The notes beneath the pieces are model-generated. The model saw only the letters and a program-made list of their open reading frames with translations, was not told the origin of the DNA and did not search any database. A DNA stretch of 5,090 nt from a bacterium (GTDB taxonomy: Bacteria; Arandabacterota; Arandabacteria; Arandabacterales; Arandabacteraceae). Positions 264-5,090 of the stretch are shown here, piece after piece (within the stretch, counting starts at the first letter, position 1; the number at the start of each line of letters is the position of its first letter). Both the position numbers and the translations under genes were made by a program. The stretch covers positions 1 to 5,090 of the forward strand of contig JAOZOU010000040.1 in assembly GCA_029933125.1 (NCBI GenBank). The letters are read 5' to 3'.

Positions 264-3092
264 GTGCGCAGGATTGCATGCAGAAGAGCTGTAGTGACCG
301 GGATTTCAGCCCTGATTCTCCTTGTTGTTCTCTCAGCGAACACCTATGCCGATTGGCTATTTGACTGGCGACTTACGTCTGACGAATCGGAATCCCGGCT
401 CTGTAACAACGCCTGGTGTGTCGGATGCGACGATTCTGGAAATGTCCATGTTGTCTGGTCAGACAACCGCGACGGCAACTACGAGATATACTACAAGCTA
501 TTTGACGGGACCAGCTGGAACGCGCCCTTCCGGCTGACATATGCCAATGAGATCTCTGACTGTCCTTCAGTAGCAATCGATCCAGGCGGCACGGTACACG
601 TCGTATGGAGGGATTATCGTGACGGCAATCCCGAGATCTACTACAAGAAGTACTATCTCGGTAAGTGGCGTGCGGACAAACGCCTGACGGATGATCCCAA
701 GTTTTCCGGCTACCCGTCACTTGCGATTGGGAAAGATGGTAAGCGCCACCTGGTCTGGTGTGACTATCGTGATGGAAACGCCGAAGTCTATTACAAGATG
801 CACGACGGTACGTCCTGGGGGACAGACCTTCGCCTGACCAGCAGCCCAAGTTTCTCAGAATTCCCTTCGGTGGCTGTCGACACCAGCGGCAATGCGCATG
901 TCGTCTGGCAGGACTACAGAGATGGAAACTACGAGATTTACTACAAGACAGGCGCCGGCACAATGTGGAGCTCAGACGAGCGGCTTACCGATGATCCGGG
1001 TTTGTCACAACATCCGTCGGTTGCTGTTGATCGGAGCGGAAATGTCCACGTGGTCTGGCAAGACAACAGAGACGGAAATTTCGAAATCTACTACAAGGTC
1101 TATGACGGGGTCACGTGGAGTTCCGATGAGCGCCTGACCAATGATGCCGCCTCTTCAACCTATCCAACAATAGCCGTTGATACGACTGGAAAGGTGTACG
1201 TAGTCTGGCAAGATGATCGCGATGGCAACTATGAGCTGTACTGTAAGACCTATGATGGTACAAGCTGGAGTCTCGATCAGCGAGTAACCACCTCTGATGG
1301 GGACTCCCAGCACCCGGTAGCAGGTATTGACCGGACTGGAAATGTTCACCTCGTTTGGCAGGATGATAGAGACGGAAACAACGAAATCTATTGGAAGGAG
1401 TACTACAGTGGAACGGTTCCCACTCCTGAGATAGCCTCAATTGAACCTGCCAGCTACTTTCGTGATGAAACAGTCTTCATTACAAATCTGTCAGGAAGCG
1501 GCTTTATTTTCCCGGATTCGGTCTGGCTGGTTCGCCCTGGCGAATCGAGAATGGTTGCGTATGGACTCAGGGTGGAATCATCTGAAAAGATCGTTTGTGC
1601 AATCGATCTTGACAGTACAGCTGCTGGCTACTGGGATGTCGTGGTCAAGAACCCGGGGGGTAAGCAAGACACCCTCCCAGAAGGTTTCTATGTTATTCCG
1701 GCCTCGTCATGGAGTGAGGACATAAGAGTATCCTATGACGCCGGGGTCTCCAGAACATCTTCGTGCAACGCCTGGTGTGTCGCATGCGACACTGCCGGCA
1801 ATGTTCATATCGTGTGGGAGGACGAACGAGATGGGCTCACCGAACTCTACTACAGGATGTTTGATGGTGAGAACTGGAGTCCCGAACAGCGTCTCACCAA
1901 CAAGCTGGATGGACACTCACGAAATCCGAACCTCGTTGCAGACGCCTGGGGGAATCTCCACCTGGTCTGGGATGACTCGAGGTATGGAAACCCAGAGATA
2001 TGTTACATGAAATACAATGGTGTAGACTGGGAGACCCCCGTACGCCTGACAGTTCAAAGTGCCGTTTCCGAGAAACCATGCGTAACAGTCGATACCTACG
2101 GCAATGTTCATGTGGTCTGGTCTGACTACCGAGATGGTGCGGAACTTTATCATAAGATATATGATGGCACGAGCTGGAGCGGGGACGAGCGTGTGACCTG
2201 GACTGATGACTTCGCAACAGCTCCGTCAATAGCTGCTGACGCGGACGGCAATCTGCACCTGGTGTGGGCAGGGGTTGGCGGAAGTAAAGCACAGATACAT
2301 TACAAGATGTACGATGGTTCGAACTGGGATATCTACGATCAGGCACTGACACAGATAATGGGGTTCGCCCTGTGCCCAAGCATAGCGGTGGATTCCAGCG
2401 GCAGAATCCATGTTGTTTGGAAAGACGACCGGGATGGAACGTACCGACTCTACCACAAGATTTATGACGGCATTTCCTGGACTACCGATGAACTTGTGAC
2501 TTTCGGTAGCAGCTCCATCTACTGGAAGTCAATTGCAGCTGACCGCAACGGTAACATTCACCTTGTCTACATTGACATAGCCGATGGGCATCCCGAGCTT
2601 TTCTACAAGATGTATAACGGCTTCGCATGGAGCACTCGTAAGCGTCTGACTTTTGGCGGTGTTAGTCTTTCCCGTTCATCCATTACCGTGGATCGAGATG
2701 GCGATATCCATGTCGTCTGGACGGAGGGTCGGGATGGGAATCAGGAAGTTTACTATAAGTTTAGGCATCCAGTAGCTGAGCCAGCAAGTGTGAATGTTCC
2801 TGTCATACCTCACGCATCCCTTGTGCTCAGAAGCATAAGACCCAATCCGACAAGTTCGCTCGCCAGCATAGTCTTCAAACTCAGATCTAGCCAGGAAATC
2901 AGACTCACAGTTCACGATGTCAGGGGGAGATTGGTTTGGCATCAGACTATCACCGACCTTGAACCCGGAACTCACACCATTCTCTGGAATCCCGAGGATG
3001 TCCATGGGATGCCCCTGTCGCCCGGCATTTACTTCGTCAGGATTGCATCCGGGAGCGAGCGGTTCTCAGCGAAGCTGGTGATTCTAAGGTGA
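264..3092 (+). CDS. Secreted double beta-propeller-like protein with IPT/TIG domain and T9SS-type C-terminal tail
   Basis: This is a 942-residue exported protein, most likely a cell-surface or extracellular binding protein. Residues 1-29 form a signal peptide: arginines at 2, 3, 7 and 8, a hydrophobic core at about 10-24, and a probable cut after T-Y-A (29). Residues 36-385 hold seven repeats of about 50 residues with the core VHVVWxDxRDGNxEIYYK and YDGxSW. Residues 386-477 resemble an IPT/TIG Ig-like domain (IxSIEP at the start, VVKNPGG and GFYV at the end). Residues 488-834 hold seven more, less regular repeats. Residues 853-942 are a FlgD-Ig/T9SS type A-like tail (RPNPTS at 859-864, HDVRGRLV at 884-891, SPGIYFVRI at 919-927, KLVILR at the end). 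Seven repeats of this size suggest a seven-bladed propeller each, but the fold is inferred. Such proteins are often labelled sialidase or BNR-like; I see no canonical Asp-box or FRIP motif, so no enzyme function is claimed. GTG at 264 is the first start after the in-frame stop at 204-206; its ribosome site (AAGGA, 246-250) is 13 nt away and weak. GTG at 294 is an alternative. Confidence 0.9.
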   Translation: MRRIACRRAVVTGISALILLVVLSANTYADWLFDWRLTSDESESRLCNNAWCVGCDDSGNVHVVWSDNRDGNYEIYYKLFDGTSWNAPFRLTYANEISDCPSVAIDPGGTVHVVWRDYRDGNPEIYYKKYYLGKWRADKRLTDDPKFSGYPSLAIGKDGKRHLVWCDYRDGNAEVYYKMHDGTSWGTDLRLTSSPSFSEFPSVAVDTSGNAHVVWQDYRDGNYEIYYKTGAGTMWSSDERLTDDPGLSQHPSVAVDRSGNVHVVWQDNRDGNFEIYYKVYDGVTWSSDERLTNDAASSTYPTIAVDTTGKVYVVWQDDRDGNYELYCKTYDGTSWSLDQRVTTSDGDSQHPVAGIDRTGNVHLVWQDDRDGNNEIYWKEYYSGTVPTPEIASIEPASYFRDETVFITNLSGSGFIFPDSVWLVRPGESRMVAYGLRVESSEKIVCAIDLDSTAAGYWDVVVKNPGGKQDTLPEGFYVIPASSWSEDIRVSYDAGVSRTSSCNAWCVACDTAGNVHIVWEDERDGLTELYYRMFDGENWSPEQRLTNKLDGHSRNPNLVADAWGNLHLVWDDSRYGNPEICYMKYNGVDWETPVRLTVQSAVSEKPCVTVDTYGNVHVVWSDYRDGAELYHKIYDGTSWSGDERVTWTDDFATAPSIAADADGNLHLVWAGVGGSKAQIHYKMYDGSNWDIYDQALTQIMGFALCPSIAVDSSGRIHVVWKDDRDGTYRLYHKIYDGISWTTDELVTFGSSSIYWKSIAADRNGNIHLVYIDIADGHPELFYKMYNGFAWSTRKRLTFGGVSLSRSSITVDRDGDIHVVWTEGRDGNQEVYYKFRHPVAEPASVNVPVIPHASLVLRSIRPNPTSSLASIVFKLRSSQEIRLTVHDVRGRLVWHQTITDLEPGTHTILWNPEDVHGMPLSPGIYFVRIASGSERFSAKLVILR
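369..1418 (+). repeat. First seven-repeat propeller-like array (150-bp coding repeats)
   Basis: Seven tandem repeats encode blades in residues 36-385 of the secreted protein. The VHVVW-type strand begins at residues 61, 111, 161, 211, 261, 311 and 361, an exact 50-residue (150-bp) period without indels. All seven units keep RDGN followed by a (E)(I/V/L)Y(Y/C/W)K strand, and most are followed by a DGxxW turn and an (R/Q)(L/V)T strand. At DNA level the units differ by many synonymous changes, so the copies are not recent. Confidence 0.85.
1725..2765 (+). repeat. Second, more divergent seven-repeat propeller-like array
   Basis: Seven repeats span residues 488-834. The HVVW-like strand begins at residues 514, 565, 615, 664, 715, 765 and 815, so spacings are 51, 50, 49, 51, 50 and 50. 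The RDG turn is lost or altered in units 2 (RYGN), 4 (GGSK) and 6 (IADG). Unit 1 shares the unusual N-A-W-C-V-x-C-D strand with unit 1 of the first array, which points to duplication of a whole propeller. Confidence 0.8.
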
Positions 3093-3311: not shown

Positions 3312-3340
3312 TTGACTCGGGACGGCAGGTGCCATAAAAT
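3312..3340 (+). promoter_or_regulatory. Sigma70-like promoter for the JAMM protease gene
   Basis: TTGACT at 3312-3317 and TAAAAT at 3335-3340 are 17 nt apart. Transcription would begin near 3347, right at the ribosome site and about 13 nt before the ATG at 3360. This rules out the upstream TTG at 3231 for this transcript and suggests that the gene is transcribed independently of the propeller gene. The boxes are seen; activity is inferred. Confidence 0.6.
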
Positions 3341-3346
3341 CGTAGC

Positions 3347-3351
3347 GGAGG
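3347..3351 (+). promoter_or_regulatory. Ribosome binding site deciding the JAMM gene start
   Basis: GGAGG at 3347-3351 is followed by 8 nt and then ATG at 3360. This is a textbook Shine-Dalgarno site and spacing. The longer reading frame would begin with a TTG at 3231 that has no purine-rich site before it (the bases there are GAGCCCTCCC), so 3360 is the better start. Confidence 0.75.
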
Positions 3352-3359
3352 ACAGGGAG

Positions 3360-4415
3360 ATGGCATTACCCAGATATACTCGATTGGCTCGCGCTTATGA
3401 GGAGACTGTTGACGCTCATCTTGAACGCACCTATGGGAATCGGCGCCATAAGCGATTGCGAACTCACCTCATGCGATGTCTGCTCACAACCCTTCTTAGT
3501 GGGCAGGCGCCTGATTCGGATAACCTCACCAGCCACTTGAGATCCCATCTCAACCGGCTCGAACGCCAACTGGCACAAGACGACTACCGACTGTCCAAGG
3601 CCTGGTATGAAACCAAGATCTATGGCGCAAGCCAGAATACAGTGGCCTCAAGGTGGCAAATAAATCGACGCGACCTGAGGATGCTTGAACAGCTCTGGAG
3701 CGATACGGGTTATGAGGCAGATGAGTACACAAAGCTCCTGGCGAAGGTTGAACCAGACTGGCCATTTGACGTCGATGAAAGACACGAGGAGCTGGTGATC
3801 TGGCTTGACGACCGTGCAATTGAGGATATCGTACTTGTCGCCCTCGAAGCCTACATCGTTCCGCGCAAAGGTGTGAAGTTCACGGAGACCTATGGAATTT
3901 GCTTTGGCTCAACCAAGACTACAGATCGCGAACGTCCCGCGAGTGGGCGCTACGCTTTGCGTCACATTGATATCCGAAGTGTTCATATCCAATTGCGCGC
4001 CGTTGGGTTTTCCAACAAAGTAACCTACGATCTCAGAAGCCTTGAGACGCAAATGGCAGTTGCGACGCATCTATTTCCCCAGCTCGATATTGTGGGCGAC
4101 TTTCATACCCACCCCTATGAAACCGCTGAGGAGCTGAGGGAGGTTAAGGGCTGGCGTTACAGTAGCGGTGATGAAGCAGGCATTGCCGAGTGGGTCAAGC
4201 CGCTTAAGCACATGGGCTATCATCCAAGGACTTCACTGATTGTGGGTATCGCTGAAGGGACCAAGCGCATTAGCCGCCCTGGCAGATTCAAGCCCAATGT
4301 CGTGAGATTCTCAGTAAGCAAATACCACTTTTATATCGCGTGCTATCGAATCGTTGGCAACAGATACTCCGACAAACACATCACACTCAACGCCGTAGCC
4401 CTACCCGGCCTATAA
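3360..4415 (+). CDS. JAMM/MPN+ (JAB) domain metalloprotease-like protein with unrecognised N-terminal region
   Basis: This is a 351-residue protein, probably cytosolic since there is no signal peptide or membrane segment. Residues about 165-300 match the JAMM/MPN+ fold: E176 in TETYGICFG (the usual E-x-x-G-(I/L)-x-x-G strand), then DFHTHP with H249 and H251, then S268-S-G-D271, and a hydrophobic SLIVGI strand (292-297). These are the expected zinc ligands (two His, one Asp), the catalytic Glu and the Ser of an isopeptidase-type metalloprotease. The gap between HTHP and SxxD is 15 residues, longer than the 6-8 usual in JAMM proteins, so there is an insertion. Residues 1-85 are basic and probably helical, and 89-112 (NTVASRW..NRRDLRML) could be a helix-turn-helix; I do not recognise this part. 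The gene has its own promoter and ribosome site. No E1, E2 or ubiquitin-like partner is nearby, so the substrate is unknown. The JAMM assignment is fairly sure; any role in tag removal, sulfur-carrier processing or defence is inference. Confidence 0.85.
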   Translation: MALPRYTRLARAYEETVDAHLERTYGNRRHKRLRTHLMRCLLTTLLSGQAPDSDNLTSHLRSHLNRLERQLAQDDYRLSKAWYETKIYGASQNTVASRWQINRRDLRMLEQLWSDTGYEADEYTKLLAKVEPDWPFDVDERHEELVIWLDDRAIEDIVLVALEAYIVPRKGVKFTETYGICFGSTKTTDRERPASGRYALRHIDIRSVHIQLRAVGFSNKVTYDLRSLETQMAVATHLFPQLDIVGDFHTHPYETAEELREVKGWRYSSGDEAGIAEWVKPLKHMGYHPRTSLIVGIAEGTKRISRPGRFKPNVVRFSVSKYHFYIACYRIVGNRYSDKHITLNAVALPGL

Positions 4416-4451
4416 AAAGGGGTCGGAGCTAAAAACGTGCATTCCGACCCC
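4414..4451 (-). terminator. Hairpin terminator for the minus-strand gene, possibly a REP-like palindrome
   Basis: A perfect 9-bp stem pairs GGGGTCGGA (4419-4427) with TCCGACCCC (4443-4451) around a 15-nt loop. On the minus strand it is followed by TTTTT (complement of 4414-4418), the layout of an intrinsic terminator for the gene ending at 4488. On the plus strand there is no T-run after the stem, so termination of the JAMM transcript there would be weaker. The A-run overlaps the JAMM stop codon (4413-4415). The loop is large for a terminator, and the sequence may instead be a dispersed palindromic element. Confidence 0.6.
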
Positions 4452-4487
4452 CGAGATTCGAAGCAAACCTCTATCGAATGCTCAAGA

Positions 4488-5090
4488 CTACCGCGATATC
4501 ACAATCTTGCGAGTCGTACTCTCTCTTCCAAGCCGCAGATTGACAAAGTAGATCCCACTCGGTACCTGCCCTGCCGGACTCAAACCAACACTATGATAAC
4601 CAGCACTGTAGCGCCCCTCTGCCAGCGTAGCAACCAGCCGCCCTGAAACATCATAGAGCGTGATCTCCACATCGCCATCAACTGGTATGCCAAAGCGCAC
4701 TGTCGCATGCTCCATGACCGGATTGGGCTTGATCGCTGCTATCACAACCCCAGTGGGTATCTCAACCCCACTCAGTCCAGCCACAGGATCGTAGATCTCA
4801 AAGTCAGCATCACTCTCATCCTCACCACTGTTGCCACTACCATCATAAGCGATAACCTTCACGCGTGCCTGTGTTGTTGCTTCTGCATCAACTGTCCAGG
4901 TATAGACCCCATCGTTCGTCTCACCTGTGGCTATGGTATCAGTGAAGGTGGCTCCGCCGTCGTGTGACAGGAGGATATCAATTGAGGTCACATCTATATT
5001 GTCAGTGGCCGTCCACGTGATGTCATAGCTCGAGCCTATATCCCAGACCTCACCACCATTGGGTACCGACACCGTCACTTGTGGCGCATC
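4488..5090 (-). CDS. Secreted protein, C-terminal part: PNGGE-type Ig-like domain plus T9SS-type tail (5' end outside window)
   Basis: The frame is open to the window edge, so only the last 200 residues and the TAG stop are seen. A GTG at 5078 lies inside the first domain and is not a credible start. In fragment numbering, residues 5-100 form an Ig-like domain of the kind that begins VxVxxPNGGExW (PNGGEVW at 10-16), with ITWTATD (24-30), a LLSHDGGATF strand (40-49), YTWTV (63-67) and ARVKVIAYD (75-83). This resembles the Ser-Thr-rich GPI-anchor/Kre9-like domain family that is common in bacterial surface proteins. Residues 110-200 are a FlgD-Ig/T9SS type A-like sorting tail: IKPNP (120-124), LYDVSGRLVATL (145-156), VPSGIYFVNL (176-185) and KIVISR at the end. 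The catalytic or binding domain, if any, is upstream of the window. The gene converges on the JAMM gene, 72 nt apart, with the hairpin between them. Confidence 0.85.
   Translation of the reverse strand, partial: DAPQVTVSVPNGGEVWDIGSSYDITWTATDNIDVTSIDILLSHDGGATFTDTIATGETNDGVYTWTVDAEATTQARVKVIAYDGSGNSGEDESDADFEIYDPVAGLSGVEIPTGVVIAAIKPNPVMEHATVRFGIPVDGDVEITLYDVSGRLVATLAEGRYSAGYHSVGLSPAGQVPSGIYFVNLRLGRESTTRKIVISR

Follow-up and report, generated by a model that had tools for sequence, protein, structure and literature searches.

A solitary, conserved gene encodes a divergent JAMM-family protein with an apparently lineage-specific helical N-terminal domain

The DNA analyzed here (the window) is an entire 5,090-base contig, so that the neighborhood can be read only as far as the contig ends. 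It carries a solitary gene on the plus strand at 3360–4415, which starts with ATG and encodes a 351-residue JAMM protein; the gene is delimited by its open reading frame, its orthologues and the purifying selection acting on it. A Shine-Dalgarno sequence, GGAGG (3347–3351, plus strand), ends 8 nt 5′ of the start codon. Upstream of this, a motif scan returned a weak sigma70-like promoter match (3312–3340, plus strand; TTGACT-17-TAAAAT, 10 of 12 positions), of which about 1.0 per region is expected by chance, and the promoter of its own that the original prediction had granted the gene is accordingly a weak candidate. The regions 264–3092 and 4488–5090 encode two surface proteins whose C-termini are T9SS-type sorting tails; one is a repeat protein of the BNR/beta-propeller type and the other is Ig-like. 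A strong intrinsic terminator on the minus strand (4414–4452; a stem of ~10 pairs followed by U5, −20 kcal/mol, z −4.5) is positioned to serve the surface gene that converges on the JAMM gene from the minus strand, with a T run overlapping the JAMM stop codon; its long loop probably explains why the consensus scan did not report it. An Rfam scan of the window gave no match.

Two parts can be distinguished within the JAMM protein: an all-helical N-terminal domain (residues 1–141; 3360–3782, plus strand), delimited by predicted helices, alignment and distribution, and a predicted JAMM/MPN+ catalytic domain (residues 145–332; 3792–4355, plus strand), delimited by hhalign and an independent profile search. 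The five JAMM residues—E176, H249, H251, S268 and D271—lie exactly where the original prediction had placed them. The codon of the presumed catalytic Glu176, within an ETYG motif (3885–3887, plus strand), is invariant in two alignments and nearly so in a third. Both the predicted zinc-binding motif HTHPY (residues 249–253; 4104–4118, plus strand) and the stretch GWRYSSGD (4149–4172, plus strand), which joins a subfamily GW pair to the zinc/active-site residues S268 and D271, are conserved in relatives. All five residues are kept in orthologues (47–86% identity to the window protein) and in relatives that consist of the JAMM part only (19–28%), the exception being an Aeromonas partial relative that starts after the glutamate; the orthologue of genome G005 is cut off by the end of its contig just after D271. 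A six-frame scan of the window found the HxH..SxxD pattern at one further place, where it is broken by a stop.

Searches with the window protein against Pfam, NCBIfam, PADLOC, PHROGs and PDB sequences returned no significant match, and its identity was therefore established through its relatives. A profile of the JAMM-only relatives (about 220–280 aa, without the N-terminal domain), from which the window's own family was left out, found the window protein at E = 9.4e-20. Aligned by hhalign, the window family matched the plasmid- and phage-borne JAMM-only relatives with a probability score of 99.2 (E = 1e-19, residues 145–332), and small proteins above the Pfam Prok-JAB cut-off with a score of 90 (E = 1.4e-6, residues 146–257). 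Orthologue P0003 reaches 17.1 bits against Prok-JAB (PF14464), for which the gathering cut-off is 25, and several relatives likewise score under the cut-off. These low scores likely reflect an insertion: in classical JAMMs, as in protein P0014, 7 residues lie between HxH and SxxD, whereas 16 separate H251 from S268 in the window protein. The canonical HxH-x7-SxxD spacing is thus absent, which qualifies the original prediction. Compared with Prok-JAB and JAB1/MPN/Mov34 (PF14464, PF01398), the protein has the E, HxH, S and D in common and can be aligned from helix 1 to HxHP, and differs by this longer spacing and by the lack of a Pfam match. The signature of the subfamily reads ET[YF]G ... HxHPY-insertion-SxxD; among the JAMM-only relatives the insertion varies in length, and most have GW or a similar pair directly before SxxD.

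Judged by its sequence, the window gene is a real and conserved, divergent member of the JAMM family, and we file the protein as a divergent variant rather than as a canonical member. It would be expected to bind zinc and to catalyze hydrolysis. The unusual 16-residue spacing might instead suggest an MPN-like scaffold, intact at the active site in sequence and acting mainly by binding. We regard this as very improbable, since the invariance of the five catalytic residues across proteins of about 20–30% identity is hard to explain without catalysis.

Five of the GTDB family's six genomes (G000, the window's genome, and G001, G002, G004 and G005) carry full-length orthologues that have the N-terminal part as well. 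No orthologue was found in one order mate and one class mate searched, nor in G003, where the absence is provisional because the rsmA locus of this genome lies at a contig end. Comparison of the window gene with that of a congener gives 94% identity for the JAMM half (dN 0.036) and 74% for the N-terminal half (dN 0.18); synonymous sites are saturated or nearly so. For reference, rsmA of the same two genomes is 75% identical. A dN of 0.036 at synonymous saturation argues against an open reading frame that carries the motif by chance, and the comparison indicates that the protein is functional and under purifying selection in both domains.

The N-terminal domain is predicted, at moderate confidence, to form helices at residues 6–25, 31–47, 58–74, 77–87, 103–116 and 120–128, and residues 1–141 contain 31 invariant columns in an alignment of five sequences. 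Convincing matches to these ~140 residues were obtained in five family members only, among 386 genomes, with no sequence relative found in plasmids, phages, viral contigs or the PDB (best profile E-value against the PDB 0.075, helical noise), suggesting that the domain is confined to this bacterial family within the databases searched. AF2 modeled the domain alone with a mean pLDDT of 68 and a pTM of 0.65; in the model of the full protein, based on a three-sequence alignment, pLDDT was mostly 72–82 over residues 11–70 and lower thereafter, falling below 40 in the JAMM half, where the model is too poor to judge whether the JAMM fold is present. Neither Foldseek nor VIA gave a match above noise for the full or the N-terminal model, bearing out the original prediction that this half has no recognizable relatives and yielding no clear match to a characterized family. 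The top rows were bestrophin and Nav helices, and SlmA and sigma-region-4 rows appeared at Z 2–4.

Two finer claims about this half call for qualification. Its helices had been called basic, and residues 1–141 are only slightly so (23 K/R vs 21 D/E); a helix-turn-helix had been placed at 89–112, where our predictions give helices 77–87 and 103–116, with a further, low-confidence helix at 92–98 that only one of the two models shows. Since HTH-like rows (PhyR, sigma region 4, KorA, SlmA) recur in the fold searches amid unrelated ones, all at noise level, a helix-turn-helix at residues 77–116 (3588–3707, plus strand) is possible on the models. It would allow the protein to work as a one-gene regulator, in which the N-terminal domain would bind DNA while the JAMM domain cuts a repressor or the protein itself; IrrE/DdrO offers a precedent, IrrE being a different metalloprotease (PMC7907104). 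The two helices with the conserved R98 and W99 between them, and the weak resemblance of residues ~34–119 to sigma region 4/PhyR/KorA-like HTHs, are what such a role would call for. However, none of the fold matches rises above noise (Foldseek E > 0.1, Z 2–4), unrelated helical proteins outrank them, and the domain is almost without net charge, which leaves this regulatory analogy unlikely.

The position of the gene changes across the family (rsmA, pdxJ and nth were named from their sequences, DUF5362 from a Pfam match in G004). In G001 and G004 it lies in the pdxJ-rsmA region, divergent from rsmA, and in G004 between rsmA and the DUF5362 gene; in G002 it is near nth, away from rsmA. The rsmA-DUF5362 interval provides an occupied and an empty site (L049 vs L003), measuring 291 bp without the gene in G002 and 1404 bp with it in G004. 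In the window's genome, rsmA is on a separate contig, beside a transposase-like ORF at the contig end, and the JAMM gene stands between the BNR-propeller gene and the convergent Ig-like gene. That it lies between two surface-protein genes, as originally noted, is true of the window and carries little meaning, because relatives have the gene beside rsmA or near nth. Neither the window nor the related loci that were read (L002, L003, L019, L020) have an E1, E2, Ubl or cyclase gene next to it, in keeping with what had been stated from the window. The adjacent E1/E2/Ubl genes by which Bil and 6a–6e Ub-like operons are recognized are likewise absent from the loci read. We conclude that this is a single gene that changes place, without a constant partner. 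With the active-site residues conserved and no partner gene adjacent, the sequences support the original view of a stand-alone JAMM enzyme whose active site is predicted to be intact.

JAMM-only relatives were found on plasmids of Photobacterium (P0008), Thiodictyon (P0007), Rhizobium (P0006), Vibrio (P0009) and Marinomonas (P0010), together with the Aeromonas fragment, and one (P0013) was found on a phage contig (L029). They too are stand-alone genes with the ETxG ... HxHPY-insertion-SxxD signature, and differ from the window gene in lacking the N-terminal helical domain, in their 19–28% identity and in their accessory, mobile contexts. Viral contigs yielded the one JAMM-only relative and nothing related to the window protein itself or its N-terminal domain; phage records contained no match, and none was detected in E. 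coli at the DNA level. On the phage contig, the relative (7974–8702) is opposite in strand to adjacent terminase-type genes and is possibly an accessory gene.

These settings raise the idea that the protein belongs to a mobile JAMM family whose members arm or disarm conflict systems, and that it is resident in the window's lineage. JAMM-only relatives follow HsdRMS/McrBC genes, sit beside AbiEii or beside an HNH endonuclease with an ISL3 transposase, and occur on the phage contig; PADLOC JAB models match P0009 (1.5e-8) and P0013 (8e-6), and the window gene itself varies in place within its family. Yet the relatives are only a handful, neither the window nor the orthologous loci hold a defense gene, no SMODS cyclase was detected in eight genomes, and slow protein evolution and presence in five of six family members look resident. 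The accessory-DNA setting of the JAMM-only relatives thus mildly favors a conflict-related origin; for the window's lineage a resident function fits better, given the strong conservation of the gene and its presence in five of six family genomes, and we consider a defense or counter-defense role doubtful.

CBASS Cap3 is encoded in an operon with a CD-NTase and an E1-E2 protein (Cap2). The JAMM isopeptidase-type domain is common to Cap3 and the window protein, and the relatives match the corresponding PADLOC models weakly; the window protein differs by its extra N-terminal domain and by the lack of a Cap2-type E1-E2 neighbor or a detected SMODS cyclase. A role as CBASS partner is therefore not supported, the cyclase search having covered the SMODS type. 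The search for the E2 family gave no match in any of its controls, so that it carries no weight.

Possible partners are encoded elsewhere in these genomes. ThiF/MoeB-type E1 genes are present, one of them in the nadA/iscS region of G000. At least four of the family's six genomes (G000 C42, G002 C394, G003 C167, G004 C176) also encode a MoaD-like protein that terminates in (I/V)SGG and could provide a -GG substrate; its gene sits in a hydantoinase/threonine-synthase-like operon and is never adjacent to the JAMM gene in the loci read. DRJAMM of Deinococcus is a bacterial JAMM that acts in trans on a MoaD-MoaE fusion (PMC8832034), and a partner in trans is the likeness that we propose. By this analogy, and given the E1 and the MoaD-like protein, the enzyme might serve sulfur-carrier and cofactor metabolism by trimming or releasing a MoaD/ThiS-like protein. 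The counter-evidence is that the MoaD-like protein already has GG as its last residues and needs no processing, that the genes are never adjacent in the loci read and that no MoaE turned up in any of the eight genomes, in a search with 11 of 14 controls positive; processing of MoaD-MoaE as in Deinococcus is for this last reason an unlikely job. Overall, we rate a sulfur-carrier function as quite unlikely.

Among JAMM-type proteins, RadC likewise combines a helical N-terminal domain with a C-terminal JAMM-type domain. The window protein is not RadC: hmmscan gave no RadC match, and the RadC of G000 is a separate, ordinary gene elsewhere in the genome (L023, 3657–4340) with a different motif, HNHPTGCVLPSREDILLT. 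JAB genes have been described in E1/E2/Ubl operons, sulfur-carrier operons and phage tail clusters (Iyer et al. 2006, PMC1779556). JAB-N of the 6d operons carries an extra alpha+beta N-terminal domain and accompanies E1/E2/Ubl genes; compared by description, the window protein also has an extra N-terminal domain, in its case all-helical and on a solitary gene, and none of the architectures in that survey combines these two features (PMC1779556). A limited literature search found no paper on a helical domain with a solitary JAMM. What appears to be new, from sequence comparison, is the union of a lineage-specific helical domain with a divergent JAMM on a solitary gene, the JAMM type itself being known.

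We favor, at about an even chance of being right, an active one-gene zinc JAMM peptidase or isopeptidase of a divergent subfamily, whose helical domain picks a target in trans. Such an enzyme would work without an operon partner: the N-terminal domain would most likely recognize the target, be it a protein or a DNA/RNA-bound protein, and the C-terminal JAMM domain would cut it, at a -GG-ending tag or in one specific partner encoded elsewhere. Both the targeting role and the nature of the substrate are suppositions, and the atypical HxH-SxxD spacing counts against this explanation in that it leaves the metal geometry a sequence-based prediction. The lack of a direct Pfam, PADLOC or PDB sequence match and the GG terminus that the MoaD-like protein already has weigh in the same direction. 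In a more specific and tentative form, which we think improbable, the protein would be a one-gene deconjugase or regulator whose lineage-specific domain targets nucleic acid or protein, and it would act in trans on a MoaD-like -GG modifier without a dedicated E1-E2-Ubl operon. Most studied bacterial JAMM enzymes have been interpreted through their operon partners. A solitary, conserved JAMM with a targeting-like domain of its own, together with a wider family scoring under the Pfam cut-off and carrying an HxH-SxxD insertion, suggests that JAMM-type peptidases without such partners are under-counted, and the window gene offers a testable case of tag removal in trans.

The window's genome holds a second JAMM gene on another contig, C25 (L054 111–7884), encoding a 269-residue protein with the motif FHIHP...PSHID and no significant similarity to the window protein. 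It is followed by genes for a ThiF/E1-like protein, a small membrane protein, a HerA/FtsK-like ATPase, a primase-like protein and a large serine recombinase, a cluster of Ub-like conjugation type on a probable mobile element.
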